From Planotetraspora kaengkrachanensis (GTDB lineage: Bacteria; Actinomycetota; Actinomycetes; Streptosporangiales; Streptosporangiaceae), in contig NZ_BONV01000035.1 in the NCBI RefSeq assembly GCF_016862895.1, positions 1-64,000 on the forward strand: DNA of 64,000 nt, in the 5' to 3' direction. The notes beneath the pieces were generated by a model. The model worked only from the letters and a program-made list of their open reading frames with translations, did not search any database and was not told where the DNA came from. Of this stretch, positions 19,880 to 44,126 are shown piece by piece. Position 1 is the first letter of the stretch; every line of letters begins with the position of its first letter. The position numbers and the translations under genes were made by a program.

Positions 19880-20142
19880 GGGCGATTACATCGCAGCAGG
19901 ATGTTGACGGGGTGACTAGCCGAGGCGTAGATCATCGCGCTGTGTCCTGACCGAATGCCTTCGGTCACGTCCACGCCGGCGATGAGACGGGCGCGACTCG
20001 CGGCAGAAGAGGACGGCAACACCGGCGCGACGGCGACGGAGTCGACAGGACATCTACGAACTCGCGGGCGCCGCCGATCTTGGAGCGATGGGGTTCCCTG
20101 TCGGACGCCCGCCGCTCCGTTTGAACTCGTTGGCCCTGTCGC

Positions 20143-20164
20143 CTGTATCAACTGTTTGACACAA
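20143..20164. promoter_or_regulatory. GntR (YtrA-type) operator copy 1
   Basis: CTGTATCAACTGTTTGACACAA is an imperfect palindrome in the promoter of the membrane-protein/GntR operon. On the minus strand, TTGTGTCAAACAG matches the start of the second copy at 20188 in all but one position. Confidence 0.6.
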
Positions 20165-20187
20165 GGGTGATTCCGCTTCACGATGCG

Positions 20188-20209
20188 TTGTATCAAACAG
20201 ATGGTACAA
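20188..20209. promoter_or_regulatory. GntR (YtrA-type) operator copy 2
   Basis: This 22-bp site begins TTGTATCAAACAG and ends GGTACAA, so TTGTA/TACAA form the outer arms. It overlaps two possible ATG starts of the downstream gene, which argues for the later GTG start at 20222. Confidence 0.6.
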
Positions 20210-20221
20210 GGGGGCGGGTTG

Positions 20222-21106
20222 GTGGGCGGGCCATTGGTTGTCGCACTCCTGGCGGGAACGGGGCTCATCGGCGTGATGATCGCGTTACTGGCTCGAATGA
20301 AGCCGCGGTCCATTTCAGACGTCGGTGTCCCTGACGGGGTGACCCGTACGACCGCGGTGTGGCGGTGGGGCGGCGTTGGAGCCGGGGTACTCGTTTCCGG
20401 TGTCGCCGGAGGGTCGGGAGCTCTCGGCCGGGGCTTGATGCTCGCCGCTCCACTTTTCGGTTTGTGCGTTTTAGCGGGCGTCCTCGTCGGCGAATTCAGC
20501 GTTCGTCCACCGCGTGGCCAGACACGTCAGGCCGTCGTGGAGGTCCGACAGGTGCGTGACTACCTGCCGCGGCAGCTCAGCCGCGCCGTGATCACCGCGG
20601 CGTGCGCACTAGTCGCGCTCCTCCTGGCGACGACCGCTGCAGGGTCTCCTGACGATCTCGGCCGTGCCGGCCGGGGTTTGTTCCGCAGGTGCAGCCCGAC
20701 GAGCACAGAGGGCCACGGTCCGTGGGCGGGGTCGTTCTACAGCTTCCCGCTGGGGATCGTGGTGCTGGTCGGCGTCGTCACGGCCGTTCTCGCGCTGCGG
20801 CAGATCGTCCGTCGTCCACGCCCTGAGAACCCCTCTGGTCTCATCGTCAGCGACGATGTCCTTCGGCGGCGGGCGGCGAACGCGGTCACGGGTGCGTGTG
20901 GAGTCCTGGTCACGATTCCGTTGATCGGGGTCTCCTTGGTGACAGCCGCCGGACTGCTTTCGATCACTTGTCGTCCGGTGTCGTGGACCGTGACCGGCTG
21001 GATACTGATCGCCTTGATAGCGCCATGGCTGGTTCTGTTGGGTTGGAGCGCTGCGGCGATCTTTTCCCCGCGGTACCGCACACGTGCGGTTCAAGGGGTC
21101 TCATGA
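20222..21106 (+). CDS. Multi-pass membrane protein paired with GntR regulator
   Basis: This protein of about 294 residues has six to seven hydrophobic segments. Examples are VVALLAGTGLIGVMIALLA, LMLAAPLFGLCVLAGVLVG, AVITAACALVALLLATTAA and WILIALIAPWLVLLGWSAA. It resembles the DUF1648-like or similar integral membrane proteins cotranscribed with YtrA-type regulators, but I do not recognise the exact family. ATG codons at 20183 and 20202 are in frame, but they lie on or before the second operator. GTG 20222 follows a GGGGG ribosome-site-like stretch and is preferred. The stop overlaps the GntR start as ATGA. Confidence 0.72.
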   Translation: MGGPLVVALLAGTGLIGVMIALLARMKPRSISDVGVPDGVTRTTAVWRWGGVGAGVLVSGVAGGSGALGRGLMLAAPLFGLCVLAGVLVGEFSVRPPRGQTRQAVVEVRQVRDYLPRQLSRAVITAACALVALLLATTAAGSPDDLGRAGRGLFRRCSPTSTEGHGPWAGSFYSFPLGIVVLVGVVTAVLALRQIVRRPRPENPSGLIVSDDVLRRRAANAVTGACGVLVTIPLIGVSLVTAAGLLSITCRPVSWTVTGWILIALIAPWLVLLGWSAAAIFSPRYRTRAVQGVS

Positions 21107-21486
21107 ACCCTCGCCCGACGCTTGTCGTCACCGCCGACGATCCCACACCACCGTACGAGCAACTCCGACGGCAACTCGTTGACCTGATCCGCTCCCGCGT
21201 CATCGGCCCGGGGGATCGCCTGCCACCGTTGCGGCAGTTGGCAGGTGATCTCGGGCTTGCCGTGGGTACTGTGGCCCGCACCTATCGCGAGTTGGAGTCG
21301 GCAGGGCTGGTCCACTCCAAGCGCGGCGGCGGGACGCGAGTGGTCGACGACCCTCCGCACCTGTCCACCAGTGAACGTCAACGGCTGCTTCACCAGCAGG
21401 CCGCCATATACGTGCGCCACGCCCTTCTACTGGGGGTAGACCGGCAAGCGGCGATCGAAGCCATCCAGCAGGCGCTCGCCGAGTAG
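21103..21486 (+). CDS. GntR-family regulator, YtrA subfamily
   Basis: This regulator of 127 residues has a winged HTH (PPYEQLRRQLVDLIRSRVIGPGDRLPPLRQLAGDLGLAVGTVARTYRELESAGLV) and only a short two-helix C-terminal tail, the hallmark of the YtrA subfamily. It overlaps the membrane-protein gene by four bases, so both form one operon. Two palindromic TTGTATCAAACAG-type sites in the operon promoter are its probable operators. Family members usually repress a linked membrane or ABC system until cell-envelope stress. Confidence 0.9.
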   Translation: MNPRPTLVVTADDPTPPYEQLRRQLVDLIRSRVIGPGDRLPPLRQLAGDLGLAVGTVARTYRELESAGLVHSKRGGGTRVVDDPPHLSTSERQRLLHQQAAIYVRHALLLGVDRQAAIEAIQQALAE

Positions 21487-21552
21487 CCGCGAATCGTGCC
21501 CCCGGGACATCGTGCTGCGCGAGCCGAATCGTCATCTGTCGCGATCAGGTGA

Positions 21553-22515
21553 CTACGGGGTCAGGACGATCCTCCCGAAGACCTCGCCGGCGTCCATCTT
21601 CTGGTGTGCCAGCACGGCGTGCTCCAGCGGCAGCACCTCGTGCACCACCGTCTGGAGCTCGCCGCGATCCGCGGCAGCGAACTGCTCCATTCTCACGGCA
21701 CGTCGAGCGGACTCCGCTACCGTCGCGGCGCTGAAGGTGGCGAAGGACATCGACTTCTGGAATGCGGCCATCAACCTCGTGCCGAAGTCTGCCGGCGGCT
21801 GGCCCCCGACTGCGCCGACAACCACGAGTCGACCGTTGGGGTTGAGCCTGTCGAAGAACGAAGGCATGTCTTCACCTGCTACGACGTCGATGATGACGTC
21901 GTAGCCCGGGGGATCGTCCGGCCCTCCTGCTCCCGAGCGGTCCAGCACGTGGGTCGCACCGAGGTCGCGCAGTCGACGGCCACGCTCAGGGGAGGAGGTG
22001 GTGACCGCCACGGCGCCGGCACCACCGCGAGCCGCGAGCTGGACCGTCATGATCCCGATGCTGCCGGCCGCGCCGCGTACCAGCACGGTCTCGCCCGGAG
22101 AGAAGTGCGCGTGGGCGAGACCGAAGTGGGCCACGACCCCGGAGCTCCCGAGCGTCACGGCGTCGACAGCGGAAAGGCTCGCCGGGAGGGTCAGGACCTC
22201 TCCGATCGGCGCGATCGCCTGATCGACGTAGCCGCCGCCCGTACCGGTGAACGCCCACACGCGCTGCCCGACCCATGCGGGGTCGACGCCATCGCCCACC
22301 GCGGTCACCGTCCCCGCCACCTCGCCGCCTGGGACATGGCCCTTCCGGAAGCCGTAGGCGGCGAGAGCACCGCTTCGGATCATGACGTCGACGCCTCCGA
22401 CGCCGATCGCCTCATTGAGGATCAACACTTGTCCCTGAGCGGGAGCCGGTGCAGGGATGTCGGTGACTGCCAGCCCCTCGGGACCCCCGAACTCCTCGAT
22501 CGCAACTGCCTTCAC
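21553..22515 (-). CDS. Zinc-independent quinone oxidoreductase-like alcohol dehydrogenase (MDR)
   Basis: The protein of about 320 residues belongs to the medium-chain dehydrogenase/reductase superfamily, quinone oxidoreductase branch. It shows GHVPGGEVAGTVTAVG in the catalytic domain and the NADPH loop VLVRGAAGSIGIMTVQLAA. The Cys and His zinc ligands of alcohol dehydrogenases are absent. It reduces quinones or enones using NADPH in the cytoplasm; the substrate is unknown. GTG 22515 has AAGGGA six bases upstream and is preferred over TTG 22539. It is divergent from the TetR gene at 22618, with a clear operator between. Confidence 0.9.
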   Translation of the reverse strand: MKAVAIEEFGGPEGLAVTDIPAPAPAQGQVLILNEAIGVGGVDVMIRSGALAAYGFRKGHVPGGEVAGTVTAVGDGVDPAWVGQRVWAFTGTGGGYVDQAIAPIGEVLTLPASLSAVDAVTLGSSGVVAHFGLAHAHFSPGETVLVRGAAGSIGIMTVQLAARGGAGAVAVTTSSPERGRRLRDLGATHVLDRSGAGGPDDPPGYDVIIDVVAGEDMPSFFDRLNPNGRLVVVGAVGGQPPADFGTRLMAAFQKSMSFATFSAATVAESARRAVRMEQFAAADRGELQTVVHEVLPLEHAVLAHQKMDAGEVFGRIVLTP

Positions 22516-22581
22516 TGTTGTCCCTTTTCGTGAGCTCAATCAAAGCCGCCGTTAAGCGACCCCTGGTTGCTTGGGGACGCT

Positions 22582-22601
22582 AACGGACGCCGACGTCCGT
22601 T
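22582..22601. promoter_or_regulatory. TetR operator palindrome
   Basis: AACGGAC at 22582-22588 and GTCCGTT at 22595-22601 form a perfect inverted repeat with a six-base centre. It lies 17 bp before the TetR GTG start in the divergent promoter shared with the quinone oxidoreductase. The ACGGAC/GTCCGT form is common for TetR operators in actinobacteria. Confidence 0.7.
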
Positions 22602-22617
22602 TAGCTAAAGTGAGAGA

Positions 22618-23187
22618 GTGGTCGACGATTTGCCTCAGACGCTGCGTTCGGACGCGCTGGACAACCGCGAGCGCATCCTCGACGCGGCTCGGGCACTGTT
22701 CGCCGCCGAAGGCATGGACGTGCCGATGCGCGAGATAGCCCGGCGCGCCGGGGTCGGCCCCGCCACCCTGTACCGCCGCTTCCCCACCAAGCAGGCGCTG
22801 GCCACCGAGGCTTTCACAGAGCAGATGTATGCGTGCCAGGCCATCGTCGAGGAGGGGCTCGCCGATCCGGATCCGTGGCACGGCCTTTGCCTCGTGATCG
22901 AGAAGCTTTGTGAGCTGCACGCACGAAGCCGGGGCTTCACCACGGCGTTCACCTCGGCCTTCCCCCACGCCATGGATCTCGCCGCGATGCGCGAACAGGC
23001 GCTCACCTCGCTCGCCGAGCTCGCGCGCCGTGCCAAGGACAGCGGCCGCCTGCGGCCCGACTTCGTCCTGGACGACCTCATCCTCATGCTGATGGCCAAC
23101 GGCGGCCTGCACGCCACATCGACAAGCGCCCGGGTTGCCGCCTCCCGACGTTTCGCCGCGCTCGCGATTCGGGCGTTCCAAGCTTGA
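22618..23187 (+). CDS. TetR-family transcriptional regulator
   Basis: This regulator of 189 residues has a canonical TetR HTH (NRERILDAARALFAAEGMDVPMREIARRAGVGPATLYRRFPTKQAL) and a helical ligand-binding domain. The GTG start at 22618 begins the conserved part. It is divergent from a quinone oxidoreductase, and an ACGGAC palindrome sits in the shared promoter, so it most likely represses both. The ligand may be a quinone or electrophile by analogy only. Confidence 0.92.
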   Translation: MVDDLPQTLRSDALDNRERILDAARALFAAEGMDVPMREIARRAGVGPATLYRRFPTKQALATEAFTEQMYACQAIVEEGLADPDPWHGLCLVIEKLCELHARSRGFTTAFTSAFPHAMDLAAMREQALTSLAELARRAKDSGRLRPDFVLDDLILMLMANGGLHATSTSARVAASRRFAALAIRAFQA

Positions 23188-23427
23188 CCGGCCTCACCCG
23201 CGAAGCCCCGTAGTCCGATCGGGTTCCGCCCGGTCACGGGCACACTGTGCGGTGCACGCGCTTGCCGCCAGGCCCCCCGCCCCGACGCTCCACCTGCGGC
23301 AATTGAGCGCGTTAGCGCCTGGACATACCGGGTTTCTATCAAACAGCGGTATGAGCAGCAAAGATCGTGATTCGCGCCACCGTGCGTTACTCTCGTGCGC
23401 CTGATCAACTCTGGTGAGGACCGGTTA

Positions 23428-24458: not shown

Positions 24459-24473
24459 TCAACTCTGCGAACA

Positions 24474-24489
24474 TCCGCTCATCGGCAAA
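24474..24489 (-). repeat. 16-bp inverted repeat, left copy, upstream of WGR gene
   Basis: Read on the minus strand this is TTTGCCGATGAGCGGA, identical to the plus-strand sequence at 26597-26612. The two copies enclose the convergent WGR and tyrosine-recombinase genes. They may be ends of a mobile unit or shared promoter elements, since each lies 65-85 bp before a start in the same relative orientation. Confidence 0.65.
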
Positions 24490-24512
24490 TCCGGTCGGCC
24501 GGCCAGACCGCG

Positions 24513-24530
24513 CGACTCGCGGCATGAGCG
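24513..24530 (+). repeat. Dispersed intergenic motif copy (CGGCATGAGCG family)
   Basis: CGACTCGCGGCATGAGCG lies in the spacer before the WGR gene. GCGACTCGCGGCA from this copy recurs exactly at 19993-20005 and 35709-35721, and the CGGCATGAGCG core recurs at several other spacers. Confidence 0.6.
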
Positions 24531-24573
24531 TGCGTCGTTGGTAGGGTCCCTGCGGCAGGAAGGCGGGCCTCGG

Positions 24574-25569
24574 GTGGAAAATTGGCGGCGGTTCGAGCGG
24601 GTCCAGGACGGTGCCTGTGAGTTCTGGCAGATTCGTCAGGAAGGCATCCGCTGCCACATCAGCTGGGGCCGTGACGGTAGCCGTCGTGGCGGGTCGACGA
24701 CCGTGGCACTGCTGGATGAGCGTCACGCGAAGTCCCACGTCGAGAAGAAGATCAGGGGGCAGCTTCGCAAGGGTTTCCTTGAGGTGGCCGGACTACCTGC
24801 ACCGATCGGCGACCCGGACGCGCTCGTGGTGGAGACCATTGCCGACGCGCAAGGGAAGCGGGCTTACGGGCTTCCCCGACCTCAGTATCTGCCTGTGGAG
24901 GGGTTCCGTGACGTGGTTTGCCACGCGCGAATCCATCCGGAGTCTCCGGGTACGGGGTTCTACCACTACCTGGTCTTGCGTGACGAAGGCCGCAGTGCTC
25001 TCGCGTTCAACGTCCGCGGATCGTCACATCGGCCGGAGGCCGTCACGGGGTTCCTGGAGACGGTCGTTACCGTTCGTGACCTGCCCTTCGACGGGCGACC
25101 GCACCACAAGATCGCCCTTGCCCGTCCAGTAGGGCCGTTCAGCCACGCGCTGCTGTGCTCGCCCGCGCTGGGTCAAGCCGCCGTCGCGTACCCGACGATT
25201 GCGGCCAGGGTGGCCACCGCTTTCCCGATCTATGACTGCGAGATCGGCGACGCTGATGCGGAGGTCTTCGTTGACGCCCGGATCCACGGGCATGGGGCGT
25301 TGCCGTACAGCGACTGGGCCCGTCGACCGCATCCGGTCGTCGACCTGCGCTTCGATATCCAAGGCCCCGACCCCGAGCGCGATCACACCTTCAAGGTGTA
25401 CCAACGCGTCCGCCTGGACACCCTGATGCCCAAGCTCGCGGCAGCTTCACCCGACAGCTGGCTGGAAGTCCGGTCCTTTCGCGGTGAGATCCGCCGGCTG
25501 ACCCCAACCAATCTCGCTGCCCCCAGTGACCTGGACAGATTCCTGCTCGACTCCCAACCGGCGATATAG
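24574..25569 (+). CDS. WGR-domain protein with uncharacterised C-terminal region
   Basis: This protein of 331 residues starts with a WGR domain (FERVQDGACEFWQI, then the hallmark SWGRDGSRRGG, and a basic helix HAKSHVEKKIRGQLRKGFLE) at about residues 3-70. WGR domains bind nucleic acid or mediate interactions in PARPs and bacterial MolR-like regulators. The remaining 250 residues contain FYHYLVLRDEGRSALAFNVRG and several beta-rich stretches; I do not recognise the fold. GTG 24574 follows an AGGAAGG element and starts the domain. It is convergent with the tyrosine recombinase, and both are enclosed by 16-bp inverted repeats. Confidence 0.8.
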   Translation: MENWRRFERVQDGACEFWQIRQEGIRCHISWGRDGSRRGGSTTVALLDERHAKSHVEKKIRGQLRKGFLEVAGLPAPIGDPDALVVETIADAQGKRAYGLPRPQYLPVEGFRDVVCHARIHPESPGTGFYHYLVLRDEGRSALAFNVRGSSHRPEAVTGFLETVVTVRDLPFDGRPHHKIALARPVGPFSHALLCSPALGQAAVAYPTIAARVATAFPIYDCEIGDADAEVFVDARIHGHGALPYSDWARRPHPVVDLRFDIQGPDPERDHTFKVYQRVRLDTLMPKLAAASPDSWLEVRSFRGEIRRLTPTNLAAPSDLDRFLLDSQPAI

Positions 25570-25616
25570 CTGCCCCGGCGGGACCAGCAACATCCTCATC
25601 TCGGCATGGTCGTGAG

Positions 25617-26531
25617 TTACGTCCCGGATGCCATGAATGCGGCGAGGATGTAGTTGGGGTGTCGGTCAAGATTCTTGCGGGCTCGGTCGTAGCGCATGGT
25701 GGTGCGTGGGTCGGCGTGGCGGGCGGCGATCTGCACGTCGCGCAGAGGGACACCGGCGTCGAGCATGGTGGTGACGTAGGTGTGGCGCAGCATGTGCGGG
25801 TGCATCCGCGGCATGCGCACACCGGCGGCATCCGCGAGACGTTTGAGCCGGCGCGTAGCAGCGTGGCGATCCATCCGAGTACCACAGCTGTTGAGCAAGA
25901 TCGGCCCTGCGGTGCGGTCTCCGATCGCGCGGTCGATCGCACGGCCGACCGCTGGTGGCAGCGGTGTCAGCACGGCCTTGTCGCCCTTGCCCACGACGCG
26001 AAGAACGCGGTGACCGTGTTCCTCACCGATGTCGGCGATGTCGGCGCCCGAAGCCTCGAAGATCCGCAGCCCGAGTAGGCCGAGCATGGCGACTAGGGCG
26101 AAGTCGTGGGGGTTGGTGGACGAGCGGGCTGCGGTGAGGATGGCCTCGAACTGCAGGTGTGACAGGCCGAGGGTCGGTGATTCGGGTGGCACGGTCGGGC
26201 GGCGAACATACTCGGCGGGTGAGTGCTCGAGGACAGCGTCGATGACGCAGGTGCGGTAGAAGCAGATCACCACGGACAGGCGGCGGGACACGGTGGATGG
26301 CTTGAACCGGCGGACCTCCTGCAGCCAGCGGACGAACATTTCGATCTCGACGCGGCGTGCCGCCAGCGGTGTGATGTCACGTTCGGTGCACCAGCGTAGG
26401 TAGATCAGCAGGTCGGACTCAGTGTGGATACGTGACAGGCCGCGGTAGCGACCCAGATGCGCTGCCAAGGCCACGCGCAACATCGGATCTTCCAGAAGTG
26501 ATGCAAGACGTTGATCGGCAAGAATGTCCAT
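25617..26531 (-). CDS. Tyrosine recombinase (XerC/D-like integrase)
   Basis: This 304-residue site-specific recombinase has a SAM-like core-binding domain at about residues 20-110 and a catalytic domain with the full set Arg156, Lys182 or 185, His246-x-x-Arg249, His272 and Tyr281. The sequence looks functional. It is shorter than phage integrases and lacks an AP2-like arm domain, which suits a Xer-type or cassette-type recombinase. It is not the housekeeping XerC/D by context. It converges on the WGR gene and lies in a zone with dispersed short repeats and an excisable-looking insertion at 30.2-31.9 kb. Confidence 0.92.
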   Translation of the reverse strand: MDILADQRLASLLEDPMLRVALAAHLGRYRGLSRIHTESDLLIYLRWCTERDITPLAARRVEIEMFVRWLQEVRRFKPSTVSRRLSVVICFYRTCVIDAVLEHSPAEYVRRPTVPPESPTLGLSHLQFEAILTAARSSTNPHDFALVAMLGLLGLRIFEASGADIADIGEEHGHRVLRVVGKGDKAVLTPLPPAVGRAIDRAIGDRTAGPILLNSCGTRMDRHAATRRLKRLADAAGVRMPRMHPHMLRHTYVTTMLDAGVPLRDVQIAARHADPRTTMRYDRARKNLDRHPNYILAAFMASGT

Positions 26532-26596
26532 ACCTCAACAGTCGGACGGGCGGCCCGGGAGACGCCGGCTGGCGACCTGGCCTACGGATGTCCGCC

Positions 26597-26612
26597 TTTG
26601 CCGATGAGCGGA
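26597..26612 (+). repeat. 16-bp inverted repeat, right copy, upstream of recombinase gene
   Basis: TTTGCCGATGAGCGGA here is the exact inverted partner of the copy at 24474-24489. It lies 66 bp upstream of the recombinase start. Confidence 0.65.
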
Positions 26613-26629
26613 CGATGCCTCGGCGAGAT

Positions 26630-26652
26630 GTGTCAGTGTCAGATGGCATGGT
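26630..26652 (+). promoter_or_regulatory. PafBC-like promoter, possibly leaderless
   Basis: GTGTCAGTG at 26630-26638, eight bases, then CATGGT at 26647-26652 resembles the actinobacterial RecA-independent DNA-damage promoter pattern TTGTCRGTG-N8-TANNNT. The predicted transcription start falls at or beside ATG 26659, so the mRNA may be leaderless. Confidence 0.4.
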
Positions 26653-26658
26653 TCAGGT

Positions 26659-27051: not shown

Positions 27052-27182
27052 ACCATCGCACGACTCTGCCGCTGGTGGCGCGCACCAACGTGCCGAAATC
27101 CGATCGCGGCTCCGAGGGATCGGCTGCTGTCGGTGCCATCTGCTTTGCTTCCTTCTTCGTGAACGTATCAAGGAGGACACTC

Positions 27183-28142: not shown

Positions 28143-28292
28143 ACCGGAGCGTCCTGGCCAGCTCGCGCCCGGCTGTGAGCTGGATTCACCGGTGAGAACG
28201 CACGGACATGCCGCGATCAGGGCGTCCGTCGCAGCCGTGAACGACCGGATCTGCCGAGATCAGTACGTCGATCGCTGTGGGAGGCTTCGTAG

Positions 28293-28922: not shown

Positions 28923-29077
28923 CCGCAGGCATCCTCATTTGCCGCTGGTCGGGCGTCGGTAGGACAGCGAGTGTGGCAGGTCCGACGCTGCCGAGATCAG
29001 TAGTCGATCGCCGAGGTTGAGGGCGTTGTTCGGTGGGTCGTTCCGGCTCGCGGGTGCGGGCCCTTATCATTCGGCCG

Positions 29078-29740
29078 GTGACCGCCTACGACGAACTTGA
29101 CCTGTTCGAGCAGTTGGATACCTCGAGTTTGCCGGCGCGGCAGCAGCGCATCCTGGTCGCGATCCGGGATTGGGTCGTCCGGTATGGGTACTCGCCGAGC
29201 GTTCGGCAGATCGGTGACGCAGTGGGGCTGCGGTCGTCGTCATCGGTGTCCAAGCACCTGGCGAGCCTGGAGGAGAAGGGCTTCCTGCGGCGTGGTGCGA
29301 CCGTGTCCCGGCCGATCGACGTGCGGGCATTCCTGCCGGGGTCCAGGCCGGCGGAGTCGGGTGGCGACTCAGTGGACGTGCCGGTGGTTGGCGAGATCGC
29401 CGCAGGGATCCCGATCCTGGCGGAGGAACACATCGACGACCTGCTGCGTTTGCCCCGCGGGCTCACCGGCCGCGGCACGGTGTTCGCGCTGCGGGTGCGC
29501 GGGGACTCGATGATCGAGGCCGCGATCTGTGACGGTGACATCGTCGTGGTGCGTCAGCAGCAGGAGGCCCACTCGGGGCAGATCGTGGCCGCGATGATCG
29601 ATGGGGAGGCTACGGTCAAGGTGTACCGACGCCGCGGCGGCCACGTCCTGCTCGAGCCGCGCAACCCGGCCTATGAGGTCATCGACGGCGACCAGGCCGC
29701 CGTGCTGGGCGTCGTCGTCTCGGTGCTGCGCAGCGTCTGA
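29078..29740 (+). CDS. lexA: LexA-like repressor
   Basis: The 220-residue protein has the LexA winged HTH (RQQRILVAIRDWVVRYGYSPSVRQIGDAVGLRSSSSVSKHLASLEEKGFL) and a peptidase S24 domain. The Ala109-Gly110 cleavage site is in EIAAGIP, the Ser nucleophile is Ser144 in GDSM and the Lys base is Lys181 in ATVKVYRR. It should bind SOS boxes and self-cleave on RecA filaments. GTG 29078 is chosen because homology begins there. No nrdR is beside it, and I see no GAAC-N4-GTTC box upstream. It may therefore be a second lexA copy in accessory DNA rather than the housekeeping gene, a question the window cannot settle. Confidence 0.88.
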   Translation: MTAYDELDLFEQLDTSSLPARQQRILVAIRDWVVRYGYSPSVRQIGDAVGLRSSSSVSKHLASLEEKGFLRRGATVSRPIDVRAFLPGSRPAESGGDSVDVPVVGEIAAGIPILAEEHIDDLLRLPRGLTGRGTVFALRVRGDSMIEAAICDGDIVVVRQQQEAHSGQIVAAMIDGEATVKVYRRRGGHVLLEPRNPAYEVIDGDQAAVLGVVVSVLRSV

Positions 29741-29925
29741 CACTCGTTTGGCCGACGAATCTCGCTCGGACAGACGACAGATCCTGCACCAGGCCGCCAA
29801 ACAGGGCGGGGAGTGAGTTGCCCCGTCTCTGATGAGGGGCCAATCATCTGCGGGCAGTGCTCCAATGCTGTCAACGCACACTCATGCCAATGACAGCGTG
29901 GTCACCGAACTCAGACCGAGCGCAC

Positions 29926-29944
29926 GGCCAGCGGCATGAGCGGA
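29926..29944 (+). repeat. Dispersed motif copy downstream of split GNAT gene
   Basis: GGCCAGCGGCATGAGCGGA differs at one position from the copy at 32156-32174. The two lie as direct repeats on either side of the interrupted GNAT gene and its insert. Confidence 0.65.
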
Positions 29945-29949
29945 TACTG

Positions 29950-31898: not shown

Positions 31899-32160
31899 TC
31901 GATTCCCAGCCACGCGGATGTCGTGACCTCCCGAACAACCAAGAAGTCACGCGCTCGAAGCGTGACTACGCCAAGCGGATCTCCATGACGAAAGGCCCCA
32001 AGCCCGAGCCGCCACGCTCCAGCTTCCAAGCTTGCCCCAGTGTTCCTGCAGCACGAACCGGGCCCGATCCTCGGGGCTGCCGTCGGTCCAAGGCGTCGGG
32101 AACGGACGCTCGTCCGCGCGGTGCACGCCCCTGCCGGCGAGGTGAGCAAGCTCACGGACA
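31899..32160 (-). pseudogene. GNAT acetyltransferase, 5' part of the interrupted gene
   Basis: The minus strand encodes ELAHLAGRGVHRADERPF, PTPWTDGSPEDRARFVLQEH and then, after a frameshift near 32015-32025, WRLGLGAFRHGDPLGVVTLR and REVTTSAWLG. This is the N-terminal half of a GNAT protein whose C-terminal half lies at 29950-30247. The first 20-30 residues are not recognisable, and the CGGCATGAGCGG motif sits at that end. The heptamer TCGATTC at 31899-31905 is the right border of the insertion. Confidence 0.82.
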
Positions 32161-32174
32161 GCGGCATGAGCGGA
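32156..32174 (+). repeat. Dispersed motif copy upstream of SUKH-like gene
   Basis: GGACAGCGGCATGAGCGGA matches 18 of 19 positions of 29926-29944. It lies at the 5' end of the split GNAT gene and 31 bp before the SUKH-like gene on the other strand. Confidence 0.65.
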
Positions 32175-32204
32175 CGCGTGCGAGGGTTCCCAACGTTTGG
32201 CAGG

Positions 32205-32801
32205 ATGACGATCGTGTCTTGGACGCAGCGGATCATCGAGGTGACCAGCGCGCGGCCGGAGCTGCGTGACATCGACTGGACGCCGGTCGAGGCCGAGCTG
32301 GGCACGACACTGCCGCCCGACTACCGCGAGCTGTGCTCGCTGCTCGGCGGCGGTTATTACTCCGGGTTCCTGCGGCTCCTGCAGCCGCGCGGTGACGCGG
32401 CGACGGACGGCCTGCTCCATTCCTGGCGGTGGCACCGAGACCATCCGGAATATGCGGGTCTATACGCACCGTACGACCTGTACGGCGGTCCCGGGCGGCC
32501 GGGTCTGCTCGGCTGGGGTGACGATCAGACCGAGGGTGAGTACTACTGGCTCGCGGACGCGGAGACCGATCCGGCGGCGTGGCCGGTGATCGCTCGCAAG
32601 GACGGCGCCGACCCGTGGCACCGATACGACATGAGCATGTCGGAGTTCATCTACCACATGCTCACGGATCACGACTTCAAGCCGTTCACGGTGGCCGCCA
32701 CGACAGCGAGGCCGTTCGTGCTGCCCGAGGGCGTGCAGATCACCACGGTGGAAGAGTGGAACGCGTGGGCGAACCGTACCGATGGCAGTCCCAGGCCATG
32801 A
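32205..32801 (+). CDS. SMI1/KNR4 (SUKH)-family protein
   Basis: This 198-residue protein has the SUKH pattern: IDWTPVEAELGTTLPPDYRELCSLLGGGYYSGFLRLL near the start, LLGWGDDQTEGEYYWLADAE in the middle, and MSEFIYHML toward the end. SUKH proteins are often immunity proteins to secreted toxins or are used as signalling adaptors. No toxin gene is adjacent, so this copy is an orphan. No obvious ribosome site precedes ATG 32205. A copy of the dispersed CGGCATGAGCGG motif lies just upstream. Confidence 0.82.
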   Translation: MTIVSWTQRIIEVTSARPELRDIDWTPVEAELGTTLPPDYRELCSLLGGGYYSGFLRLLQPRGDAATDGLLHSWRWHRDHPEYAGLYAPYDLYGGPGRPGLLGWGDDQTEGEYYWLADAETDPAAWPVIARKDGADPWHRYDMSMSEFIYHMLTDHDFKPFTVAATTARPFVLPEGVQITTVEEWNAWANRTDGSPRP

Positions 32802-32861
32802 CCATATCGACGTGAGCCCAGCCGGGAGACTACGGACTCACATCGGCAGAGAGCGCGGATC

Positions 32862-32873
32862 GCGGCAGAAGAG
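32862..32873 (+). repeat. Dispersed motif variant (GCGGCAGAAGAG)
   Basis: GCGGCAGAAGAG, with ATCGGCAGAGAG about 20 bp before it, falls in the spacer between the SUKH-like gene and the convergent hypothetical gene. It is the CAGAAGAG variant also seen at 20001 and 35549. Confidence 0.45.
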
Positions 32874-33064
32874 AGCGTTGTGGCTGATCATGCCCGGCTG
32901 CCGGAGGCCAGTGGAGCGCGTGCTCTCAGGATCCAGGTGTCCCTTCTCTGGGAGGAAAGCGCACTGGTGCGGTAGCGGTGGAGAAATGTGGGCGGTGCGA
33001 CGCTCGGCGTGCTGTTGGCTGAGTTCTGCCGGTCGTCCAGTTCCGGGACGTCGGCGAAGAATTC

Positions 33065-35341: not shown

Positions 35342-35545
35342 CGCTGCGACCTCCGTCCGTCTGACGATGCACTCAGTCTGCACACGCCCACGCGCACGAC
35401 TCGCCAGATTTCCGTAGTCCCATCGCGCTAGGGACTGCCGCCCACCCCCGCGCGCTTCGTACGCCAAGTCGGTCTGATGCCCAACAGCCAGGCGGGTCAG
35501 GAGAACCAGAACAGCGCAGACAAAACCGGAGGCAGACACCCGACC

Positions 35546-35564
35546 ATCGGCAGAAGAGGAAGTG
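35546..35564 (+). repeat. Dispersed motif copy (ATCGGCAGAAGAGGAAGTG)
   Basis: This copy shares TCGGCA, AG, GGAAGTG and CG in order with the copy at 44059-44078. Both precede a copy of the 60-bp repeat, by about 30 and 65 bp. Confidence 0.55.
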
Positions 35565-35637: not shown

Positions 35638-35708
35638 AGGGCGGGCGCACGTTGTCCTGCCTCGGTTTGATGATCGATGTGATCAACCAGAACCACGGTG
35701 TCGGGTGT

Positions 35709-35723
35709 GCGACTCGCGGCAGA
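35709..35723 (+). repeat. Dispersed motif copy (GCGACTCGCGGCAGA)
   Basis: GCGACTCGCGGCAGA is identical to 19993-20007 and shares its first 13 bases with 24512-24524. Confidence 0.6.
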
Positions 35724-35832
35724 TCCGCGCACGTGATCTCGCAAGGGTATCTGCATACATCGTCTATGAGTGTTCGGGTTAGTGCGCGATAGCCGTGCGC
35801 GCATCGGCGGCGCGTGCCACGGCCTGTAAGTT

Positions 35833-38796
35833 GTGCCGGTGACCGCACCAAAACCGGACGTCGTGCGTCAATCTGTCGCCCGCCCCGGTCTACCACTGCC
35901 ACCGGCTGGGCGCCTGATGAAGGTTCGGTTGCGCTTGCAGGTCATGGGCCCGTTACGGGTATGGCGGGGTGATATCGAGGTCGATGCCGGCCCCCGGCAG
36001 CAGCGGGCTTTGCTGGCACTACTGCTGGCGCAGCACGGCCGGCCGGTCGGACTGGGCGAGCTCGTCGACCTGATCTGGGTGACGGACCCGCCGGCGACCG
36101 CGGTGAATATCATCCAAAAGTACATCGGTGCACTACGCCGGATGTTGGAACCCGACGTGGCGCCGCGGTCGTCTGGGTCGTACCTGGCCCGCCAGGGCAA
36201 CGGCTACCGGCTGACGGCCGGTCCCGACGTGCTCGACCTGGCCGCCTTCGGCCGGTTCGTCACGGCGGCGAAAGCGGCGGCCGCCGCTGGGCGGACGGGT
36301 GAGGCGCTCGACCGGTACGGCGAGGCCCTGCAGCTGTGTCAGGGTCAGGCGGGCGGAGGCCTGGCGGACAACGCAGCGGCTGCGGCCGTCTTCGCCGGCA
36401 TCGACGGCCAGTTCGTCGACGCGGCGGTCGATGCCGCCGGTATCGCGGTGGCCGAAGGCCGTCCGGGCGAGGTGCTCGCGCCGCTGCGACTGGCCGCGAG
36501 AATGTTCCCGCTCCACGAACCCGTGCACGCGAGTCTGATGGCGGTGCTCGCCGGCGCCGATCGCCAGGCCGAAGGGCTGGCGGTGTACCAGTCGATTCGT
36601 GAACGTCTCGCCGACGAGCTCGGTGTCGACCCGGGGCGCGAGTTGCGCGAGGCGTACCTGCGGGTGCTGACCCCGATCGTGGTCACCCCAGCCGCGGTGC
36701 CGCCCACCGCGCCCACCGTTCTTGTCCCGGCCGAGCTGCCGCCCACCGCGCCCACCGTTCTTGTCCCGGCCCAGCTGCCGCCCGATCTTCCGCTGTTCGT
36801 CGGACGCCGGGCGGAACTGGCGGTGCTCGACGACCTCGTGGCCGCGACGACCAACCGCACCGGTCCACTGGTGATCGCGATGGACGGCATGGGCGGCGTG
36901 GGCAAGTCGACGCTCGCCGCGCACTTCGCGCACCGCGTCGCCCGGAAGTTCACCGACGGCCAGCTCTACCTGGACCTGCAGGGCCACGAGGACGACGGTG
37001 AGGGCGTCCCGGCCGTCGAAGCCCTGCGCTCCCTGCTCTACGCACTGGGATTGCGCGGTGCGGACGCCCCGGAGTCGCTGGAGGCGTTGGTGGGTACCTA
37101 CCGCAGCCTCACGGCCGGGAAGCGGATCCTGGTGCTACTGGACAACGTCCGCGACCAGTCGCAGGTCCAGCCGCTGCTGCCGGGTTCAGCCGGAAGTCTG
37201 GTGCTGGTCACCAGCCGCCTCCCGCAAGTAGGCCTGGCCGTCCTCGGAGGCGCCCGCCTCATCCGGGTCGACCTGCCCGACCGGCAGGTCGCCCGCAAGA
37301 TGCTCGAACGGCGGCTCACACACACCGAACGTGTCACCGGCGGCGACGCCGAGTCCCTCGACGCGATCGTCGAGCTGTCCGGGCGGCTGCCACTGGCACT
37401 GGCGATCCTGGGCGCCCGGCTCAGCGCCCGTCCGCGACTGTCGCTGGCGTCGGTCGTCGCGGAGTTGCGCGACGGCGCCCACCGGCTGGCGGCGTTCCCC
37501 GGCGGGCGGGGCGTGCGTGACCCGCGTACGACGTTCGCGTGGTCGTACCGCCAGCTGAGTCCCGACGCGGCCCGGCTGTTCCGGCTGCTGTCGGTCGCGC
37601 TGACCCCGGGCATCACGGCCGAGGCGGCCACGAGTCTGTCGGCGTGGGAGCCGCGACGCACCCGCGAGGCCCTCATGGAACTGGCGGAGGCCGCGCTGGT
37701 GACGGAGGACGACCACGGCCGGTTCACCTCACACGTCCTGGTCAAGGCGTACGCGGAGGAGCTGTTCCGGGAAACCGAACCGCCCGCTGAGCAGGCGGCG
37801 GCGGTTAGCCGGCTCCTGCAGCATTACCTGCACAGTGTCCTGAATGCCCAGTCCGAGCTGAAGAGCTACTTCCGGATCTCACCGCCGCCGCCTCCGCCGG
37901 ACGGCGTTATCGCCGAGCGGCAGGGCTCACTGGACAACGCCTACGGCTGGTTCGACCGTCACCGCGACGTTCTGTTCGAGGCTGTCCACATCGCGGCCGA
38001 GGGTGACCACGGTGTCGCCCCTTGGCGGCTGGCCCTGGCCATGCCGCAGTACCTGGAGAGTGCGGGCCTCATCCGCGACTGGGAAGACGTCGTCCGCTTG
38101 GCGCTGCGCGCCGCCCGTGAGCAGGGTGACGCGATCGGCGAGGCGCACCTGTGCCGCAGCCTCGCCGGTCCCCGCTGGTACTCCGGCGCGAACGACGACG
38201 CCCTCGACCTGCTGCGGACCGCGTTGCGGCACTACACCGAGCACGGCATGACCAAGGAGCAGAGCGCGGTGCGGAACAACCTCCAGGCGGTGTACACCTC
38301 GCTTGGCGACCACGAGGTGGCGCTGGAACACGCCCGGCAGGCGGTGACTCTGAGCCGGCTCAGCGGAGAGCGTCAAACCGAACTCAACGGCCTGATGCGC
38401 ATAGGTCAGTCGCTCGCCGAGCTTAAGCGGTTCGAGGAGGCGGTACACGCGTTGCGGCAGGCGCTCGACATCTGCCGTGACCTCGACCAGTGGACCGAGG
38501 AAGCGTGGATCCGGCACATGCTCGCGCAGAGCCTCGCGGGCATGGGCCGAGTCGACGAGGCGATCGAGGAATACACCGCAGCGGTCCGGCTGGGCGGCGT
38601 GTTGGCGCAGGGACCGACGCAGGTCTATTCGCTCCGGGATCTGTCGAAGCTTCTGCTGTCGACGGGTGACGTGGCCGGGGCGCGGCGGGCATTCGACCGC
38701 GCCGTCGAGCTGATGGGCACATTCCAGGACGGCGGACCCGAGCTCCTGCGAGCCGACCTCGGGGAGCTCGCAGAACTGCTCGCCCGGCACCGCTAG
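35833..38796 (+). CDS. SARP/AfsR-type regulator: OmpR-like DBD, BTAD, NB-ARC, TPR
   Basis: This regulator of up to 987 residues has an OmpR-type winged HTH (RQQRALLALLLAQHGRPVGLGELVDLIW) and a bacterial transcriptional activation domain ending DELGVDPGRELREAYLRVL. An NB-ARC ATPase with P-loop GMGGVGKST at about residue 353 follows, then a winged-helix part and a TPR array. AfsR-like proteins activate secondary-metabolite or stress genes. Candidate starts are GTG 35833, GTG 35839 and ATG 35917; the last directly precedes the conserved DBD. A 39-bp tandem duplication (13 residues, PPTAPTVLVPA) forms the BTAD/NB-ARC linker. No biosynthetic cluster is nearby in the window. Confidence 0.9.
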   Translation: MPVTAPKPDVVRQSVARPGLPLPPAGRLMKVRLRLQVMGPLRVWRGDIEVDAGPRQQRALLALLLAQHGRPVGLGELVDLIWVTDPPATAVNIIQKYIGALRRMLEPDVAPRSSGSYLARQGNGYRLTAGPDVLDLAAFGRFVTAAKAAAAAGRTGEALDRYGEALQLCQGQAGGGLADNAAAAAVFAGIDGQFVDAAVDAAGIAVAEGRPGEVLAPLRLAARMFPLHEPVHASLMAVLAGADRQAEGLAVYQSIRERLADELGVDPGRELREAYLRVLTPIVVTPAAVPPTAPTVLVPAELPPTAPTVLVPAQLPPDLPLFVGRRAELAVLDDLVAATTNRTGPLVIAMDGMGGVGKSTLAAHFAHRVARKFTDGQLYLDLQGHEDDGEGVPAVEALRSLLYALGLRGADAPESLEALVGTYRSLTAGKRILVLLDNVRDQSQVQPLLPGSAGSLVLVTSRLPQVGLAVLGGARLIRVDLPDRQVARKMLERRLTHTERVTGGDAESLDAIVELSGRLPLALAILGARLSARPRLSLASVVAELRDGAHRLAAFPGGRGVRDPRTTFAWSYRQLSPDAARLFRLLSVALTPGITAEAATSLSAWEPRRTREALMELAEAALVTEDDHGRFTSHVLVKAYAEELFRETEPPAEQAAAVSRLLQHYLHSVLNAQSELKSYFRISPPPPPPDGVIAERQGSLDNAYGWFDRHRDVLFEAVHIAAEGDHGVAPWRLALAMPQYLESAGLIRDWEDVVRLALRAAREQGDAIGEAHLCRSLAGPRWYSGANDDALDLLRTALRHYTEHGMTKEQSAVRNNLQAVYTSLGDHEVALEHARQAVTLSRLSGERQTELNGLMRIGQSLAELKRFEEAVHALRQALDICRDLDQWTEEAWIRHMLAQSLAGMGRVDEAIEEYTAAVRLGGVLAQGPTQVYSLRDLSKLLLSTGDVAGARRAFDRAVELMGTFQDGGPELLRADLGELAELLARHR
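36697..36774 (+). repeat. In-frame 39-bp tandem duplication in the SARP linker
   Basis: Two adjacent 39-bp copies at 36697-36735 and 36736-36774 differ at only two or three positions and encode 13-residue repeats containing PPTAPTVLVPA. It lengthens the flexible linker between the activation and NB-ARC domains and could vary by slippage. Confidence 0.85.
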
Positions 38797-38804
38797 ACGC
38801 CGTC

Positions 38805-38925
38805 TCGGCGGCCACCCGCTGCATGAAGGCCGCCGTAACGTCCGGATGCGAGACGAACACCATGTGCGAGACTTCGATGAACGTCTCGGCCGTGTCCAAC
38901 GCCGTCGTCCGAACCTTGGCATGAT
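38805..38925 (-). pseudogene. Alpha/beta-hydrolase C-terminal fragment
   Basis: The minus strand reads ALDTAETFIEVSHMVFVSHP and then DVTAAFMQRVAAETA, which resembles the last helices and the catalytic His region (SHMVFVSHP) of an alpha/beta hydrolase. No upstream part of the gene is present and no proper stop follows. It abuts the end of the SARP gene on the other strand. Confidence 0.6.
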
Positions 38926-38940
38926 CACATGCACTACTTT

Positions 38941-38952
38941 CGGCATGAGAGG
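38941..38952 (+). repeat. Dispersed motif copy (CGGCATGAGAGG)
   Basis: Matches the CGGCATGAGCGG core at 11 of 12 positions. It lies between two gene fragments. Confidence 0.5.
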
Positions 38953-39088
38953 TCGGCTCCAGCCTCGCAATGGAGTGCCGGTCGCAGTGGCCTGCGGACC
39001 GATACCCGACAGTCCTACACGCGCCGACGACGTCACCTGGGACTTCTCAACGCAGCGAGGACTCGCTCCTCCTTGACAGGGTCGATGC

Positions 39089-41098: not shown

Positions 41099-41302
41099 GT
41101 CGTCCTCCACGCGCGTAGTCGATGTGTCGCCGGTACTGACCCCGGCAGCGTCGGGAACTTCTCGGCGCCCGCCCCGCCCGGTGCATCCTGTCCCGAGAAG
41201 CCGGTACCGCGTATCCCTCCTGCCCAGGTGGTGCGCCATCGGACGATCACATCGCCGACCACCGGATGTGGCGCCGCTACGGCGATCCTCCCGAGAAGGC
41301 CA

Positions 41303-41917
41303 CTACTTCCCGCCGGGCACCTGGTCCTTGACCTCGTCGTAGCCGACCTTGGTGGGTGCCTCGGTCGGCGAGTAGATCACGCGGATCACGCCCGTCGGAA
41401 ACGCCTCCGTCGCCGTCATTCTCAGGTGGTACGGCGCTTCGCCGTCGTCGAACAGCCTGCGGCCCTTACGCGCCGCCACCGGGTGCACCAGCAGGCGCAG
41501 CTCATCGACCAGCCCCGCGGCGAGCAACTGCTGCACCACGGAGATCGAGCCGGGGATCAGGATGCCTCTGATGCCGGCATCGGCCTTGAGCGAGGTGACG
41601 GCATCGAGGAGATCGCCTTTGATCAGCTCGGAGTTGCGCCAGGAGAACTCCAGCGGCTGGCGCGAGACGACCACCTTGCGCACGTCCCCGAGTTGCTTGG
41701 CGAACGGTGCGTCGTCCCCACCCGCCGCCTCGCGGTCGGGCCAGGCTCCGGCGAAGCTGTCGTAGGTCTCCCTGCCGATGAGCAGCACATCAGCGGTGTC
41801 ATAATCCTCGCCGACGGCGCGGCCCATGTTCTCGTCGAAATAGGGGAAGTGCCAATCGGGGTTGATCTCGGCCACACCGTCGGCCGAGATGAACAGCGTG
41901 GAGATGACCTTTGCCAT
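41303..41917 (-). CDS. Dihydrofolate-reductase-like (RibD C-terminal) family protein
   Basis: The 204-residue protein has the RibD_C/DHFR-like fold: MAKVISTLFISADGVAE at the start, ADVLLIGRETYDSFAGAWP, and the late NADPH-binding IPGSISVVQQLLAAGLVDELRLLVHPV. Proteins of this group reduce pteridine- or flavin-related compounds, but most remain uncharacterised, and this is not the housekeeping FolA. A second member of the same family occurs at 61104. Confidence 0.88.
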   Translation of the reverse strand: MAKVISTLFISADGVAEINPDWHFPYFDENMGRAVGEDYDTADVLLIGRETYDSFAGAWPDREAAGGDDAPFAKQLGDVRKVVVSRQPLEFSWRNSELIKGDLLDAVTSLKADAGIRGILIPGSISVVQQLLAAGLVDELRLLVHPVAARKGRRLFDDGEAPYHLRMTATEAFPTGVIRVIYSPTEAPTKVGYDEVKDQVPGGK

Positions 41918-42286
41918 CGCGGTGATCCTTTCGAGTCAGGCGGAATCGGTAGGTAGACCAGCGCAGCATCCCAAACTCATCGCCGGCCACCGACCCGTCC
42001 CGATGGAGAGTCGGCATTTCGAGGCCGGCGTGATGCATCGGCACAGTTTCGTCGACCGGATGCAGATGGGCGACCGGGTTCCTCGAGCCCTGTTGTTCTG
42101 TCCCGACCGGTGATGCGTTCAAGGGATCTCGATCAGCCCGCACCTGCATCCTCGTGGTGCCCCTGTACCGGGCGAGATAGGCGGCTGTTGCTGCCCGCAA
42201 CGGATCGGCGTCGAACGGAGCGGACCGTGCGCCTGCCCGCTACGCGGCAGAACAGTGCACCGTTCAGGGGTGTTGCCGACGTTTCG
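41918..42286. other. Intergenic region, no gene recognised
   Basis: This 369-bp region lies between the DHFR-like start and the end of the TetR gene, both on the minus strand. The minus strand gives an uninterrupted but unconvincing reading with a short stretch AAYLARYRGTTR that faintly resembles an integrase N-terminus; I do not call a gene. Confidence 0.4.
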
Positions 42287-42909: not shown

Positions 42910-42990
42910 ATGTCACACGGCGACATCCTTTGCGGGGAGAGTATGTCGCATGGTGACATCACGGTGTACGGTGATGTCGCAAGATGACAT
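42910..42990. promoter_or_regulatory. Three ATGTC-N7-GACAT operator repeats
   Basis: Sites at 42910-42926, 42943-42959 and 42974-42990 each have ATGTC, seven bases, GACAT. Their starts are 33 and 31 bp apart, near three helical turns, which favours cooperative binding on one face of the DNA. They fill the promoter between the TetR and epimerase genes. Confidence 0.85.
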
Positions 42991-43012
42991 CAGTCTTTGG
43001 GAAGGAACCACG

Positions 43013-43921
43013 ATGCGGGTATTCGTCACCGGCGCCTCCGGCCACCTCGGCTCCGCGGTCCTGCCGGAACTACTCTCCGCCGGGCACCAGGCCGTCGGCC
43101 TGGCCCGCTCCGACGCGTCGGCCGCCGCGATCGAGAAGCTCGGCGCCCAGGTGCGCCGCGGCGACTTGTCCGACCTCGACGTGCTACGCGAGGAGGCGGC
43201 CGACTCCGACGGCGTGATCCACCTCGCGTTCCGCCACGACCTCATGCTGAGCGGCGACATGACCGGCGCTGCTGAGGCCGACCTAGTCGCCCTCAAGGCA
43301 CTGGCCGACGGTTTGGACGGCTCCGGCAAGCCACTGGTCGGCACGAGCGGGACGGGCATGCTCGTGATGGGCGGCGTCGTCGGCCGCCCTGGCACCGAAC
43401 GGGACGTGTTCCCGGGCGGCTACCGGATCGATGCGGAGAACTTCGTGGCCGACCTCGCCTCGCGCGGCGTGCGCTCCTCGATCGTCCGGCTCGCGCCCAC
43501 GGTGCACAGCTCGCTCGACCACCACGGCTTCATCGCGGCCATCATTGCCGCCGCCCGGCAGAAGGGGTATGCCGCATACGTCGGCGAGGGCGCCAACCGG
43601 TGGCCGGCCGTGCACACGCTCGACGCGGCCGACCTCTACCGGCTCGCCCTCGAGAAGGCGCCGGCCGGCTCGCGCCTGCACGCGGTCGCCGACGAGGGGG
43701 TCCCGTTCGCCGAGATCGCCGCCGCCGTCGGCCGCAACCTGGGCATCCCCGTCCGCAGCATCGGCCCCGAGGAGGCGGACGACTACTTCGGCCCCCTCGG
43801 GTGGTTCGCGCAGATGGACAACCCGGCGTCGGCCGTGATCACCCACGAACTGCTCGGCTGGACCCCGGCCCATCCCGGCCTAATCGCCGACCTGAACGAG
43901 GGGCACTACTTCCAGGCATGA
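43013..43921 (+). CDS. NAD-dependent epimerase/dehydratase-type (extended SDR) protein
   Basis: This extended SDR of 302 residues has the N-terminal VTGASGHLGSAVLPELL cofactor motif, DGVIHLAFRHD in the middle, a long catalytic segment near YRIDAENFVADLASRG, and the IRLAPTVHSS and VHTLDAADLYRLALEKAPAG regions of the NmrA/epimerase type. The substrate is unknown. GAAGGA lies seven bases before ATG 43013. It is controlled, by inference, by the divergent TetR via three operators, and ends at a strong rho-independent terminator. Confidence 0.9.
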   Translation: MRVFVTGASGHLGSAVLPELLSAGHQAVGLARSDASAAAIEKLGAQVRRGDLSDLDVLREEAADSDGVIHLAFRHDLMLSGDMTGAAEADLVALKALADGLDGSGKPLVGTSGTGMLVMGGVVGRPGTERDVFPGGYRIDAENFVADLASRGVRSSIVRLAPTVHSSLDHHGFIAAIIAAARQKGYAAYVGEGANRWPAVHTLDAADLYRLALEKAPAGSRLHAVADEGVPFAEIAAAVGRNLGIPVRSIGPEEADDYFGPLGWFAQMDNPASAVITHELLGWTPAHPGLIADLNEGHYFQA

Positions 43922-43932
43922 ACCACAAACGA

Positions 43933-43963
43933 CGGCCCGGGACTGTTCCCGGGCCGCCGTTTT
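43933..43963 (+). terminator. Rho-independent terminator
   Basis: CGGCCCGGGA and TCCCGGGCCG form a perfect 10-bp GC-rich stem with a four-base loop, followed shortly by TTTTC. It lies 12 bp after the stop of the epimerase gene and is the clearest intrinsic terminator in the window. Confidence 0.88.
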
Positions 43964-44059
43964 CGTTATCGAGTACTCGGGACGAGCCCAGCTGCTCGGC
44001 TTCACCGGCTGACGCTCAAATCCGAACGCCGAAATCAACCAAGATGCGTGCACTCAATT

Positions 44060-44071
44060 CGGCATGAGCGG
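44060..44071 (+). repeat. Dispersed motif copy (CGGCATGAGCGG)
   Basis: An exact copy of the core also present at 29932 and 32162. The following GAAGTGCCG links it to the variant at 35549. Confidence 0.6.
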
Positions 44072-44126
44072 AAGTGCCGTGGGCGACATGGCGGCCATCC
44101 GCGCAGAGTTCGAGTCGGTAGCCACG

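Follow-up and report, generated by a model that had tools for sequence, protein, structure and literature searches.

A probable integron-like cassette array with its own Xer-like tyrosine recombinase in Planotetraspora kaengkrachanensis

The stretch analysed here, called the window, comprises the first 64,000 nucleotides (nt) of a contig of Planotetraspora kaengkrachanensis (NZ_BONV01000035.1; G000:C35:1-64000 in a genome of 8.77 Mb and 96 contigs). Its region between 20.0 and 44.1 kb is very probably an integron-like cassette array, in which a resident Xer-like tyrosine recombinase would act on short sites of 10-6-10 layout. At the level of sequence comparison, these sites are confined to the array, they co-occur with the recombinase family and are coherent with it in strand, and the exchange of units between genomes breaks at the central CGGCA. 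From the co-occurrence, the strand coherence and the unit boundaries we infer that the enzyme acts on these sites; circular intermediates and exact cut positions are proposed on the same footing. More broadly, actinobacteria probably possess a separately evolved gene-capture platform, in which a dedicated Xer-like recombinase and dif-type duplex sites would move units across species and genera. No earlier account of this system was found in the open literature, a scope outside which preprints and most subscription journals lie.

Probable recombination sites of the array

A preliminary description of this DNA had reported a dispersed intergenic motif, with exact sub-repeats that it held to exclude chance. 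The sub-repeats were found as described, with three exact copies of GCGACTCGCGGCA (19993, 24512 and 35709) and two of CAGCGGCATGAGCGGA (29929 and 32159), and chance is excluded for the wider site, the 12-mer core alone being weak evidence. This core has 30 matches with at most 2 mismatches in the window against 19.8 expected, the observed count being attained in 2 of 100 shuffles, and 18 exact copies in the whole genome against 37 for the reversed control. Three of these copies are in the window, and the remaining 15 have dissimilar flanks. The bare core was rejected as evidence, its genome-wide excess being absent and its excess in the window slight.

The wider site was modelled as a 23-nt matrix, seeded in 600 nt and trained on the 3 kb upstream of 66 recombinases from other organisms. 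Sites were called mainly at a score of at least 15; cut-offs of at least 12 and 14 were also used, and the lowest listed cut-off was 8. At 15 or more the matrix finds 18 sites between 19.5 and 44.5 kb, with cores from 20001 to 44060, and none in either the other 39 kb of the window or 400 kb of the same genome, sampled as 20 author-chosen stretches. This genomic background has 2 matches at 14 or more and 7 at 12 or more, and 200 column-shuffled matrices give a mean of 0.13 sites in the array and a maximum of 2. Further sites scoring at least 15 lie on the same contig beyond the window, at 96646, 100859, 134729 and 138829. None of the 18 window sites is inside a called gene, gene overlap resting throughout on the author's own simple gene caller. 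Twelve sites are on the plus strand and six on the minus strand; the latter form a single block (26603-29889), the pattern that inversion between opposed sites would leave. The wider site is beyond chance and the motif is real, and it is most likely a recombination site. A search of Rfam returned one match only, which was sub-threshold, and the repeat gave no match in phage records.

The preliminary description was borne out in placing copies in spacers, mostly in one orientation, and the confinement to this region that it proposed to test was observed. Eleven of its 12 listed places are matrix sites scoring at least 15; the place at 23343 scores below 8 and lies 50 nt beyond the matrix site at 23297. 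Overlooked were the sites at 23297, 24483, 27071, 28256, 28944, 29889 and 42245, together with a weaker one at 25602 (11.0).

When the left and right flanks of 332 distinct sites are compared for complementarity, a single dyad stands out, with 0.428 of letters complementary against 0.21-0.32 at eight other offsets, and the site can be read as two arms, from -11 to -2 and from +5 to +14, round a 6-bp centre (G/T)CGGCA. CGGCA is 97-100% conserved, partly by construction since the sites were picked by the matrix, and the arms are variable. Within a site, the two arms show no covariation beyond composition (z 1.8, 332 sites), as is expected of duplex half-sites that are reshuffled at a fixed centre and unlike folded attC sites. 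The attC sites carry GTTRRRY/RYYYAAC boxes, and the GTTRRRY box is absent from the consensus of the 332 sites. Single-strand folds of 12 window junctions are non-uniform, and two-core junctions, with site spacings of 16-62 nt, account for 18 of 237 spacings. The proposal that every junction is an attC-like hairpin was abandoned, as it is unsupported by folds, spacing and arm covariation.

The recombinase and the sites beside its relatives

An intact tyrosine recombinase had been noted near the motif, and its catalytic residues are indeed complete (R156, K182, H246, R249, H272 and Y281; alignment A1). The Phage_integrase domain scores 81.8 bits, and an N-terminal SAM_4 match scores 20.5 bits, below its cut-off of 27. 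The closest NCBIfam models are Xer models, both under cut-off (XerD 103 bits vs 329.6, XerC 101 vs 335), and the enzyme fails the integron integrase models (TIGR02249 45.9 bits vs 265, over residues 220-284 only; PRK15417 37.4 vs 435). The best solved relative is XerD (1a0p, E 7.8e-35, 123.9 bits); Gp33 (5vfz) reaches 66.5 bits. The enzyme has the layout of an Xer-like simple tyrosine recombinase, with core-binding and catalytic domains only and the R-K-H-R-H-Y residues, but by these scores, and by its lack of conservation in the genus, it is no orthologue of XerC or XerD. Several subgroups among the simple recombinases are described in passages of PMC8138268.

Class-wide, 12 of 394 genomes, the window's own included, match the recombinase at E<=1e-70. 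A scan of GTDB contigs gave 89 recombinase loci, of which 80 were kept, from 29 named actinobacterial genera including Kribbella, Nocardia, Amycolatopsis, Tessaracoccus, Terrabacter, Kineococcus and Actinomadura. The site work used 66 of these loci, among which some partial matches still remain, and omitted 14 with partial or edge-truncated matches. Plasmid relatives are all below 60% identity, and phage relatives include Arthrobacter phage integrases of 46-49% identity among the matches listed (20 of 113 records). One of the 113 phage records has a relative in the 60-80% band.

When 9-mers were collected de novo from the 600 nt 5' of 65 recombinases and the divergent strand was compared with the other, GCGGCATGA was enriched at 20 loci vs 0, CGCGGCATG at 17 vs 0 and CGGCATGAG at 16 vs 0; the motif of the preliminary description was therefore recovered without using the window. 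With the matrix at 12 or more, the divergent strand upstream, training DNA included, has 183 matches spread over 62 of 66 loci, and the opposite strand has 25; downstream, outside the training, the corresponding counts are 129 (50 loci) and 5. In 42 of the 66 loci the nearest upstream divergent-strand site lies 23-141 nt away from the point where the recombinase match starts, and in 21 loci the nearest downstream site, at most 932 nt from that point, is at or shortly past the gene end. Dif-type 26-bp sites occur in the recombinase locus in 27 of the 29 named genera. As controls, 29 other recombinase loci of the genus (102 kb) hold 4 matches at 14 or more, which is few, yet above the 2 per 400 kb of the background, and about 63 kb round four relatives of 45-48% identity (L157-L160) hold none; sites are present at some further relatives with about 46% identity or more (L161, L165).

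The 66 loci yielded 189 units of 200-3500 nt. Of the 150 units free of a recombinase, 72 hold a single gene, 31 hold two, 11 hold more and 36 are without genes; the median length is 952 nt, and gene direction is split 92 vs 76. Only three of 289 sites fall within called genes, although the coding fraction is 0.59. A family scan covered 60 cassette proteins out of the 153 with 80 amino acids (aa) or more (168 cassette proteins in all). It gave 76 Pfam families, each represented by two members at most, and some proteins matched candidate defence families. At one locus (L150 15805-16411, genome G091), nineteen tandem cores at 28- or 34-nt spacing look like empty cassettes in a row; a recombinase gene lies about 2 kb away, and its match stops short of the C-terminus.

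Exchange and content of the units

The spacer at 35530-35740 was compared with 60 genomes, its own included, and related repeats were found in all four congeners and in 3 of 55 others. An own-genome comparison of the spacer 35500-35740 was also part of the discovery; side by side, variable genes sat between CGGCA cores. An earlier candidate, in which the 92-bp repeats at 35545 and 44105 would be the ends of an IS21-like element, was rejected, as the variable genes lie between CGGCA cores instead.

The congeners compared were four genomes (G001-G004), with 20 regions aligned to the window. Two window units come and go among them, breaking at the site core, which answers the question of the preliminary description whether genes between copies move as units. 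The unit 24520-25602 has a counterpart in G003 that is 97% identical across 1113 nt and has CGGCA at both boundaries, and the left flank of core 24520 matches two places in G001 where the right side is different. Both G002 and G003 carry the unit 35717-38941 at 96-97% identity; to the left of core 35717 the window, G002 and G003 all differ, save up to about 8 nt beside the core, and to the right of core 38941 the window is unlike both. The G002 and G003 copies have additional DNA between the positions matching 38870 and 38874. In G002 and G004 the DNA to the right of the array (52.6-58.8 kb) is conserved as part of some 4-17 kb of genes in common, which indicates the same neighbourhood with different content. 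The left flank (0-19.5 kb) has no match of at least 250 nt within the 80 kb compared per genome. The stretch 41219-42144, common to G002, has one end only near a site.

Similar junctions occur in other genera. In Terrabacter (L184/L246), a 2-kb recombinase unit is 99% alike and the outer 60 nt agree at only 0.30 and 0.33. A Tessaracoccus junction (L190/L236) agrees at 0.97 on the left and 0.38 on the right, and a comparison of Propioniciclava (L185) with a Propionibacterium metagenome-assembled genome (L209) gives 0.28 and 0.97. Six of 13 junctions compared show a clear contrast of this kind (at least 0.88 on one side and at most 0.38 on the other, by an ungapped 60-nt count), and the similarity of recombinase units stops at sites on both sides in several pairs, for example L184/L246 and L194/L207.

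A number of observations weigh against this reading. Seven of the 13 junctions are not clear, and the pooled tests are weak, because most similarities are genic: 59 of 407 clusters of similarity end-points are near CGGCA vs 10.6% at random, and 117 of 3649 similarity ends are at a site in both partners. The stretch 21532-23211, a dehydrogenase and TetR pair with 95% identity to G004:C55, has ends that are not at sites, and the G004 region sharing it, like the right-flank region of G004, gives no site above 12.1; the pair appears to reflect another way of transfer. The congeners carry sites despite having no close copy of the recombinase, the best in G002 and G003 being 41% identical and G001 and G004 giving no match at E<=1e-20. 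Their arrays could be frozen, be served by another enzyme or have lost theirs, and a 25-aa C-terminal recombinase remnant tentatively adjoins the array in G001 (E about 0.01-0.02). Loci L234, L237 and L239 have no site of 14 or more, the eight such sites of L227 are all on the recombinase's own strand, and no site occurs in the 2-3.5 kb of two partial relatives of 70-76% identity (L094, L095). In the window itself, the site nearest the recombinase start is on the recombinase's own strand, which would need an inversion.

In array order, the first unit holds a short gene without name with dehydrogenase and TetR genes, followed by units with a thioredoxin-like gene, an unknown gene, the recombinase, a YunG-like gene and an aldo/keto reductase. 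Next are units with a gene of weak zinc-ribbon matches, LexA, a FAD-binding oxidoreductase, an SMI1/KNR4 gene, two unknown genes and a BTAD regulator. The last units carry HxlR, an unscanned gene, a glyoxalase and RibD_C, and finally TetR and an epimerase. The coordinates are collected in the table.

Table. Sites and selected units of the proposed cassette array, in window coordinates
Feature	Position	Strand	Remarks
Site	19990..20015	+	Core CGGCA 20001, score 23.1 (matrix scan)
Site	23286..23311	+	Core 23297, score 16.2
Site	24472..24497	+	Core 24483, score 17.0; first of two-core junction; flank in common with G001
Site	24509..24534	+	Core 24520, score 22.8; breakpoint, right side common to G003, left to G001
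One-gene cassette	24520..25606	+	Gene 24703-25569, no Pfam family
Site	25591..25616	+	Core 25602, score 11.0; breakpoint vs G003; adjoins recombinase stop codon
Tyrosine recombinase, intact	25617..26531	-	304 aa; Pfam PF00589 E 6.7e-23; alignment A1
Site	26589..26614	-	Core 26603, score 16.4; 72 nt upstream of recombinase start, attI-like position
Site	27057..27082	-	Core 27071, score 15.1
Site	28199..28224	-	Core 28213, score 22.1
Site	28242..28267	-	Core 28256, score 17.5
Site	28930..28955	-	Core 28944, score 22.5
LexA unit	28944..29889		Second LexA gene 29078-29740 (+)
Site	29875..29900	-	Core 29889 (TGGCA), score 15.1
Site	29921..29946	+	Core 29932, score 24.0
Site	32151..32176	+	Core 32162, score 25.6
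SMI1/KNR4-family gene	32205..32801	+	Sole called gene of unit 32162-32863
Site	32852..32877	+	Core 32863, score 17.1
Site	35537..35562	+	Core 35548, score 20.0; left end of 170-nt gene-less palindromic unit
Site	35706..35731	+	Core 35717, score 17.4; exchange breakpoint vs G002, G003
Regulator cassette	35717..38945	+	One 959-aa BTAD/NB-ARC/TPR gene, 35917-38796
Site	38930..38955	+	Core 38941, score 20.9; exchange breakpoint vs G002, G003
Probable N-terminal remnant of a second recombinase	42132..42206	-	Adjoins site 42245
Site	42234..42259	+	Core 42245, score 21.6
Site	44049..44074	+	Core 44060, score 21.1; last site of the array

The array LexA is 56% identical to the genome's other LexA, and the four congeners have one match each, at 55-57%; a second LexA as an array unit could bear on SOS control. 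The remnant beside site 42245 is tentative; with the relative at L185 as query, tblastn gives 60% over 25 aa (E 0.009). The gene-less unit of about 170 nt at 35548-35717 lies between two cores and has a long imperfect palindrome (TGTC...TTGATGCTTGAC / GTCAAGCATCAA...GACA). It also occurs at C35:96558-96649 and C66:12848-12938 and in the congeners, where parts of it have 4-13 matches per genome, and it is possibly a rider like a miniature inverted-repeat transposable element or a special form of the site. Other repeats are shared with contig C66 at 85-90% identity, namely window 45972-46108 with C66:1836-1973 and window 44889-44943 with C66:1218-1268 and 3667-3720, none of them with an obvious relation to CGGCA sites. 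Outside the array, blastn matches window 14674-14705 to its own reverse complement, making it a perfect palindrome of 32 nt.

Mechanism, alternatives and known systems

In the proposed mechanism, each unit, mostly of one or two genes and about 1 kb, would be bounded by a site of about 26 bp, whose two inverted arms of about 10 bp would bind recombinase monomers and whose 6-bp centre (G/T)CGGCA would be the place of strand exchange. The small Xer-like recombinase would itself ride as a unit between two sites. Recombination between two directly repeated sites would excise a unit as a circle, circles would be inserted at other sites, and stretches between opposed sites would be inverted. As only the centre must match, site halves would be reshuffled and the arms would drift, with CGGCA remaining fixed.

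It is unlikely that the sites are dif-like and used by the housekeeping XerC/XerD, as in Acinetobacter, with the array recombinase a mere passenger. The 10-6-10 layout is close to the 11-6-11 of dif, the arrays of the congeners lack a close array recombinase, and all five genomes keep a 313-aa recombinase that looks Xer-type from its sequence. However, sites accompany the array-recombinase clade in nearly all of the loci, with few or none at other recombinases, and the CGGCA centre is unlike the Frankia dif sequence given in a part of PMC3025954. The resemblance to Arthrobacter phage integrases would agree with leftover attachment sites from serial phage or island insertions by an integrase preferring this sequence, but this is very unlikely, since the units, about 1 kb long, contain ordinary genes from very mixed families and differ one by one between genomes, and the recombinase itself lies between sites.

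A classical integron, with IntI and attC sites, could explain a recombinase adjoining a site, a row of small units in a single site orientation, as in G091, and the two-core junctions; it is nonetheless extremely unlikely, given the IntI model score far below its cut-off, the non-covarying arms, the missing GTTRRRY box and a gene orientation that is hardly biased. Binding sites of a global regulator, which the preliminary description had offered as its second option, would likewise be intergenic. This reading has next to no probability and is already contradicted: no site scoring at least 15 occurs in the 400 kb sampled elsewhere in the genome, exchange breaks at the core, and the sites bound units whichever direction the genes face. 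The cassette array with recombination sites, its first option, is instead supported by the unit exchange, the sites beside relatives of the enzyme and the core-site layout.

A second system of integron logic, built from a near-Xer enzyme and duplex sites, would bear on the origin of integrons from Xer recombination and on how actinobacteria swap accessory genes. It also yields a searchable 23-nt matrix and a marker enzyme, and may provide genome engineering with a new enzyme-site pair.

Among known systems, the arm-less phage integrases are similar in having a small recombinase without an arm-binding domain, and Gp33 (5vfz), which we take to be Brujita Int, is among the structural matches, although its profile score is about half that of XerD. 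Brujita-type simple integrases integrate one phage genome and are not known to form cassette arrays. The Acinetobacter dif (pdif) modules, with 28-bp sites of 11-6-11 layout in the account excerpted from PMC12907356, share short two-arm sites with a 6-bp centre and units of one to few genes in arrays. They differ from the present system, which has a dedicated travelling recombinase, mostly one site direction, actinobacterial hosts and 10-6-10 sites whose sequence is unlike dif.

Compared with integrons, the attC features are missing (no boxes, no arm covariation and non-uniform folds, as judged without any attC model). The window enzyme does not pass the IntI model, its scores being nearer to XerD, the sites are of duplex type with a fixed CGGCA centre, genes face both ways, and the recombinase is itself a unit. 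Complete integrons are lacking in actinobacteria in the relevant portion of the IntegronFinder 2.0 survey (PMC9024848). The array nevertheless follows the same logic as that set out in sections of PMC8618304. A dedicated tyrosine recombinase is often divergent from a site just upstream, an attI-like arrangement seen in 42 of the 66 loci, with the window's site on the other strand. Tandem units, mostly of one or two mixed genes, have sites at their boundaries and are exchanged between genomes, and the breakpoints at CGGCA suggest that, as with integron cassettes, this exchange takes place at the site by site-specific recombination.

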